Of a stretch of DNA of 47,721 bases, positions 6,257 through 7,667 are shown piece by piece. Below the pieces are notes generated by a model. That model had not been told where the DNA came from. It did not search any database and saw only the letters and a program-made list of their open reading frames with translations. The stretch is taken from the NCBI GenBank assembly GCA_021845685.1, contig JAJZVN010000017.1, positions 1-47,721 on the forward strand, in the 5' to 3' direction. The stretch comes from a bacterium. GTDB lineage: Bacteria; SZUA-79; Acidulodesulfobacterales; Acidulodesulfobacteraceae. Each line of letters opens with the position of its first letter. Position 1 is the first letter of the stretch. Position numbers and translations under genes: made by a program.

Positions 6257-7309
6257 TTATATTGCATCTCCGCAATAAGGGCAATATTTTAATCCGGGCA
6301 GCGGCGGGATAGACATGCCGCATTTTTTGCATATTTTATCGGAATCCAAACTATTTAATTTTTTATATAATTTTTCTTCTAATTTTTCAATAAATTTTTC
6401 AAAATGCTTTAAATCTTCCTTTTTGAAATTTTTAGTTATCAATTCAATAATTACAGTATCTTTTTCAATCCTTGCTTCAAGTTCTTTTCTATTAACGTAA
6501 AAATAAACTTTAAATTTATTAATTTCTTTTCTGGTAACTAATTCTTCATCTATAAATTTTTTAAAGCTTTGACTTATAATAGACGGGGCAAGCCCTGTTT
6601 CGTCTTTCACTCTTTTAGTCGTAATCGGTTTTTTATCATTCTTAAGGAAGTGCTTTATAATCATTGCATAGACCATAAACTCCGAAGGACCCATAAGTCT
6701 TATTTGGAAATCGTTAATTAAATACCTGCTTGTCCATAATGCAATAGAAATATAATAAAACTTTTTTAAATTATCGCTTTTGTCTAAAAATTCAGAAAGA
6801 TTTTTTTCCTGCTCATCGTTAACTATGTTATTCTTTTTTAAAAGATCTATTACTCCGCTTAATAATTTATTTATAATTATTGTATCGGAATCATCAAAAC
6901 TGCAAAATTCAAGCGCTTTTAAATTAATAAAATTAAATTTTTGAAGCAGTGTATAAGATAAAATATAATTTGTTTTCCTTTTATCTTCCGTTAAAGTTGA
7001 TTTTTTTATTAATTTATTGTCCTGCAATGTTTTTAAAACAGTGGCAAGATGTGGCGTTGAAATATATAATTTATTGAGTTCTTTGTAAGATACGACGATA
7101 CCGGTTTTTTCAAAATCTTTTTTTTCTTTTTCTGTAGAATGAGTATATTTATAAGCAAAATATGCAAATATGGTAAATTCAATATCGCTAAGATAAGCAA
7201 TTTCTTTGTTATCTGGCGGTATATTTGTTATAGTGTCTTTTACAAATTTGTCTCTATTTAAAAAAAATAGACTTAAAATTATATAAAATTTAGTTTGAAG
7301 ATTTTTCAT
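6257..7309 (-). CDS. Putative regulator: two winged-helix segments and a C-terminal zinc ribbon
   Basis: I do not recognise this 350-residue protein as a named family. Residues of about 40-115 look like a MarR-type winged helix (YKELNKLYISTPHLATVLKT, then LIKKS and a basic KRKTNY wing). Residues of about 205-270 form a second one (TTKRVKDETGLAPSIISQSF, then ELVTRKEINKFKVYFYVN). The C-terminus carries a zinc ribbon with Cys 327, 330, 343 and 346. A Lys/Glu-rich helix, possibly a coiled coil, comes before it. The start is well set: CCGGAGG lies seven bases upstream of ATG, one of the few strong ribosome-binding sites here. Upstream are a (TTAG)n tract and palindromic sites, consistent with self-regulation. 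DNA binding is inferred from fold only. Confidence 0.6.
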   Translation of the reverse strand: MKNLQTKFYIILSLFFLNRDKFVKDTITNIPPDNKEIAYLSDIEFTIFAYFAYKYTHSTEKEKKDFEKTGIVVSYKELNKLYISTPHLATVLKTLQDNKLIKKSTLTEDKRKTNYILSYTLLQKFNFINLKALEFCSFDDSDTIIINKLLSGVIDLLKKNNIVNDEQEKNLSEFLDKSDNLKKFYYISIALWTSRYLINDFQIRLMGPSEFMVYAMIIKHFLKNDKKPITTKRVKDETGLAPSIISQSFKKFIDEELVTRKEINKFKVYFYVNRKELEARIEKDTVIIELITKNFKKEDLKHFEKFIEKLEEKLYKKLNSLDSDKICKKCGMSIPPLPGLKYCPYCGDAI

Positions 7310-7352
7310 AAAAATGCCTCCGGAATGACTTTTTATTTTTAGAAATTTACTA

Positions 7353-7402
7353 TAGTTAGTTAGTTAGTTAGTTAGTTAGTTAGTTAGTTAGTTAGTTAGT
7401 TA
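7353..7402. repeat. TTAG tetranucleotide tract, about 12 copies
   Basis: An uninterrupted run of TTAG lies about 45-95 bases upstream of the regulator's start codon, between it and the palindromic sites. A four-base unit in a leader or promoter is the classic form of a slipped-strand contingency tract. Confidence 0.9.
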
Positions 7403-7411
7403 TTTTATTTT

Positions 7412-7436
7412 TATATAGTCATATCTTGACTATATA
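7412..7436. promoter_or_regulatory. Palindromic operator candidate upstream of the regulator
   Basis: TATATAGTCA and TGACTATATA form perfect 10-bp arms around a five-base centre. The core TATAGTCATA occurs at 7414-7423 and again, in the same direction, at 7491-7500, where it lies inside AGTATAGTCATACT, itself partly palindromic. Two matching sites about 77 bases apart, upstream of a winged-helix gene, suggest an autoregulatory operator. This is inference; binding has not been shown. Confidence 0.45.
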
Positions 7437-7667
7437 GATTATACATATAGCCTATATACCTATATAATAGATATTACACAATATTCATAGTATAGTCATA
7501 CTTTACTATTGTATCATAAAATTTAATAATGTAAAACAAAATATTTATATAAATCATAAAATATTATATTTAAATATTTAAACACTAATACACCTCAATT
7601 TAAAGATAATTTTAAAAGATAATTTTAAACTTTTAAATTCATTCTTGTTGTTAAAATATCTGCCGTC

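Follow-up and report, generated by a model that had tools for sequence, protein, structure and literature searches.

The window analysed here is an entire 47.7-kb contig (47,721 nucleotides) of a 3.04-Mb genome assigned to the genus Candidatus Acididesulfobacter, with Ca. A. diazotrophicus AP1 (hereafter AP1) as its closest named relative. It carries, on the minus strand, a 350-aa ORF that begins with ATG behind a GGAGG ribosome-binding site and encodes the protein referred to below as the regulator. Read toward the gene, the upstream DNA consists of a promoter-like element, a copy of TATAGTCATA, a palindrome, a TTAG array and the GGAGG motif. The elements that a preliminary description had placed around 6257-7501 (the ORF, the TTAG units, a palindrome with 10-bp arms and two TATAGTCATA sites) are thus all present.

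6257..7309, minus strand: gene of the MarR-type two-domain regulator with C-terminal zinc ribbon (350-aa ORF; orthologs, Pfam, AlphaFold2 and Foldseek)
6260..6346, minus strand: four-Cys C-terminal zinc ribbon, residues 322-350 (invariant cysteines; weak Pfam zinc-ribbon matches)
6491..6691, minus strand: second winged helix, residues ~207-273, with HTH TGLAPSIISQSFKKFID (AlphaFold2; weak MarR_2 match; Foldseek of the second half)
6959..7186, minus strand: first winged helix, residues ~42-117 (AlphaFold2 secondary structure; PF01047 match; conservation)
7353..7402, no strand: (TTAG)12.5 array, reading CTAA in the mRNA, 43 nt 5' of the ATG (tandem-repeat detection)
7412..7436, no strand: perfect palindrome TATATAGTCA-TATCT-TGACTATATA, arms 10/10, in the predicted leader (inverted-repeat detection)
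7491..7500, no strand: second TATAGTCATA copy, at the predicted transcription start (window count)
7508..7535, minus strand: predicted promoter TTTACA-N16-TACAAT with extended TG (consensus scan; similar element in orthologs)

Domain architecture of the regulator

The regulator was compared with its orthologs as a set of 29 sequences. A PF01047 (MarR) match at residues 80-112 was found in 29/29 members at E<=0.1 (best 1.2e-6), the window protein scoring 24.6 bits, right at the gathering cutoff. The MarR_2 match at residues 221-261 is weak and below cutoff, and is likewise present in 29/29 members at E<=0.1. The first winged helix has the HTH helix STPHLATVLKxLQ and the wing DKRKTNYIL. An AlphaFold2 model of the regulator (pLDDT 88, pTM 0.85) has the MarR topology a1-a2-b1-a3-a4-b2-b3-a5-a6 in both halves, followed by a small ribbon, whose cysteines C327, C330, C343 and C346 are invariant across the 29 sequences and presumably bind zinc. 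The model and the invariant cysteines support the combination of two winged helices and a zinc ribbon put forward in the preliminary description, for which structure prediction had been proposed as the check.

Where that description found no known family for the protein, each half is MarR-like, and the closest whole-chain match is SarS. In a Foldseek search with the whole chain, SarS (1p4x) was the best PDB match (E 6.5e-4, probability 1.00) and the sole one at E<=0.001, the next matches being mostly MarR chains; the whole-chain TM-score is modest, at 0.51 by target and 0.39 by query. The second half alone gave 29 Foldseek matches at E<=0.001, which are MarR-type chains. When this half was modelled alone, its winged-helix core remained confident (pLDDT 80-91) and the outer helices fell to 40-60, a loss of confidence without the first half that fits packing at a pseudodimer interface and is suggestive of outer helices lying between the two halves. 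Searching the PDB by sequence returned nothing with the single sequence and, with a profile, just ZitR, below threshold. PF22381 (SarA/Rot) matched 21/29 orthologs at E<=0.1 (best 1.1e-4), the window protein being without a match. A profile comparison of the first with the second half, from shallow alignments, gave no significant similarity, so that an internal duplication is unsupported.

Topology and model matches common to the MarR family (PF01047/PF12802; structures of ZitR, PefR, SlyA and HpaR) were found in each half. Classical MarR proteins, however, have ~140 aa and form homodimers of identical chains, whereas here two domains, unlike in sequence, lie in one 350-aa chain. SarS, SarU and SarY constitute the two-domain SarA subfamily of Staphylococcus (PMC9781258), and a single chain with two winged helices is therefore a known plan: SarS, like SarU and SarY, has two MarR/SarA-type winged helices per chain, as does the regulator. 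SarS differs in having ~250 aa and lacking a zinc ribbon, whereas the regulator carries the invariant Cys4 ribbon; the two share 11% identity in the structural alignment, and their hosts and regulons are unrelated. Archaeal winged-helix regulators of the Lrs14/Sta1 type (NF040939, NF053606) gave a weak profile match to the second half, far below the cutoffs, and are single-domain proteins without a ribbon. With two winged helices per chain already known, what is novel is the zinc ribbon together with the restriction to the lineage described below; none of the family libraries searched models the MarR-MarR-zinc ribbon architecture as a whole.

Promoter, leader and repeats

Upstream regions of orthologs contain an element like the predicted promoter, TTTACA-N16/17-TATAAT, in the N17 form in most genomes of other genera. 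In AP1 the block that bears it is near-identical, and most of the other genomes of the genus have a version that can still be recognised; sought elsewhere in the window's genome, the block gave just partial AT-rich matches. A conserved sigma70-type promoter ~200 nt 5' of the ATG probably drives the regulator gene, with the transcription start predicted from it. Between this start site and the final ~70 nt ahead of the ATG, the leader differs between species of the genus. The AP1 protein is 99% identical, yet its leader lacks the TTAG array, and another species of the genus has a different leader array, TTTACTTTAA, in 5.9 copies. A hairpin in the leader RNA was not significant (z-score -0.57), and an Rfam scan returned the tRNA as its single match.

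Within the window TATAGTCATA has exactly two copies (7414 and 7491), and the palindrome core has no other exact match in the 3.04-Mb genome. Since perfect inverted repeats of equal size arise ~2-3 times per shuffle of the intergenic AT-rich DNA, the palindrome by itself is unremarkable. The preliminary description had taken conservation upstream of orthologs as the test of its palindromes, their loss counting against it; the palindrome is degraded in AP1 and absent elsewhere. In an ungapped scan the AP1 core has two mismatches, non-compensatory, by which the pairing is broken, although 0/100 shuffles were as good; the best matches in the remaining orthologs have 3-7 mismatches, mostly at shuffle level. 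The second TATAGTCATA copy has one mismatch in AP1. A regulon of TATAGTCA-N5-TGACTATA sites, for which the earlier description had suggested a genome search, did not emerge from a genome-wide search: no other site was found at 0-1 mismatch, and at <=3 mismatches there were 25 sites in the whole genome versus 39 for the reversed control.

These results bear on whether, in the species pair formed by the window genome and AP1, the regulator acts as its own repressor by binding at both TATAGTCATA sites. Both exact copies of the window lie here, one of them at the predicted start site, and AP1 retains recognisable versions of both. The sites are nevertheless missing from the other five genomes of the genus and from other genera, in which the HTH helices are near-identical; moreover, the AP1 changes hit both arms of the palindrome and no regulon was found. 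Autoregulation of this kind is therefore rather unlikely, and an autoregulatory site at the predicted transcription start is weakly suggested as a possibility. A box like TATATGAAGTTCTAAATTAT is found in several other genera directly 3' of the -10 element, roughly where the second TATAGTCATA of the window is located, and this box would be preferable to the palindrome as an operator candidate.

The TTAG array has a period of 4, 12.5 copies and a 100% match. Twenty shuffles of the intergenic DNA produced zero perfect arrays of this class, but the window holds 14 perfect arrays, mostly intergenic, so that the array is non-random and at the same time locally ordinary. Perfect arrays also occur in AP1, and none was found in six 18-kb loci of other genera. 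Slippage in 12.5 perfect 4-nt units 43 nt from the ATG is plausible, and gain or loss of units could alter leader length and expression, making the array an element of phase variation or tuning. Against such a role, which the preliminary description had raised as a switch-like tract, the array is absent upstream of 28/28 orthologs, including the 99%-identical one, and similar arrays are common in the contig. It starts 106 nt 3' of the predicted -10, behind the promoter, and so leaves the -35/-10 spacing unaffected; frameshift switching is impossible because runs of CTAA carry TAA, and runs of TTAG carry TAG, in every frame. We regard a tuning or phase-variation function as very unlikely; an influence through the length of the leader or the stability of the mRNA is at best conceivable.

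Several further repeats were recorded. A minisatellite with a ~45-bp unit in ~8 copies (12185-12540) lies upstream of gmk, and the corresponding region of AP1 (L065:14568) has a similar 51-bp unit in 3.3 copies. A TTAG-like array of 8-bp units (TTAGTCAG/TTAGACCG; 39505-39591) precedes an ABC1-kinase-like gene, and downstream of rpmB lies a perfect inverted repeat whose 25-bp arms enclose a loop of 6 nt (8554-8609). GlmS typically has ~610 aa; the GlmS of the window (33130-35316, minus strand; 728 aa) contains an Asn-rich, in-frame insertion that finishes with NIS tandem repeats (9-bp unit, 34149-34237), and across further genomes of the genus the open frames at this locus have 731-829 aa. The GlmU-like protein (35658-37379, minus strand) has INN repeats in its N-terminal nucleotidyltransferase region, encoded by a perfect 9-bp array (37172-37219). 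In AT-rich, repeat-rich genomes such as these, palindromes and microsatellites should be compared with orthologs before operators or switches are named.

Distribution, gene neighbourhood and proposed function

The regulator is present as a single copy in 29/30 genomes (28 and the window's own) of its family, a little-known group from acid mines, covering all six genera, and the one genome without it is 59% complete. Orthologs are 61-99% identical. Within the genus dN/dS is ~0.05, which corresponds to strong purifying selection, and conservation is among the highest in the HTH and wing segments of both domains. Searched with a profile built from the 29 sequences, 356 genomes from outside the family yielded no convincing homolog, the single hit being a 53-residue stretch (E 6e-4). 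The paper naming the order makes no mention of MarR (PMC6776010).

In 5/5 other genera sampled (of six in total), the regulator gene is divergent from a radical-SAM gene (NF045502), after which follow an Mrp/NUBPL ATPase, usually a thioredoxin, two CNNM/CBS proteins, an AIRS-domain (ThiL-like) protein and Lon. Since the two divergent genes have their upstream region in common, the radical-SAM gene is a candidate ancestral target of the regulator. In Acididesulfobacter the regulator gene adjoins relA/spoT, rpoZ and gmk, rpmB being a further neighbour in the window; in two genomes it lies ~3 kb from the radical-SAM gene on the same strand, and in the remaining ones the radical-SAM gene is distant or on another contig. 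Inspection of upstream regions by eye revealed no convincing operator common to both genes in Acididesulfobacter.

Taken together, we consider it likely that the regulator is a MarR-type pseudodimer in one chain, extended by a zinc ribbon, and that its gene has a leader with a non-conserved palindrome and TTAG array. The protein very probably binds DNA. Its two unlike winged helices would bind one DNA site, which need not be a perfect palindrome as the two HTH helices differ, and the ribbon might stabilise the protein or dock a partner. The regulator would repress or activate few genes, its own and the radical-SAM gene possibly among them, and the palindrome and array, situated in the 5' leader behind the promoter, would not form a conserved control element. 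An uncultured candidate phylum would thereby gain a conserved, testable regulator.

A more far-reaching proposal appears quite unlikely to us: that the whole candidate phylum has in this protein a lineage-specific, near-essential global regulator. The MarR pseudodimer would then be fused and asymmetric, and its ribbon would either contact RNA polymerase or respond to metal or redox state, so that in acid mine drainage transcription would be coupled to Fe-S/radical-SAM metabolism. Very improbable is a double winged-helix protein of basal-factor (TFIIE/TFE-like) or replication (Rep/DnaD-like) type that is no specific regulator, as the near-universal, single-copy occurrence, the slow evolution, the weak Foldseek matches to TFIIE and RPC62 and the weak Phage_rep_O/DnaD Pfam signals in some members might suggest; the MarR signals are stronger, take in the wing motif and are found in every member, SarS is the lone whole-chain match at E<=0.001, and the setting is chromosomal with no conserved iteron-like repeats. 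A phage origin was likewise rejected, PHROGs matches being weak and the surroundings housekeeping.

As a separate observation, the radical-SAM gene of one species (locus L071) has in front of it about three tandem repeats of ~60 bp in which the start region is contained (ATATATCAAATT...AAAATTTATGAAT).
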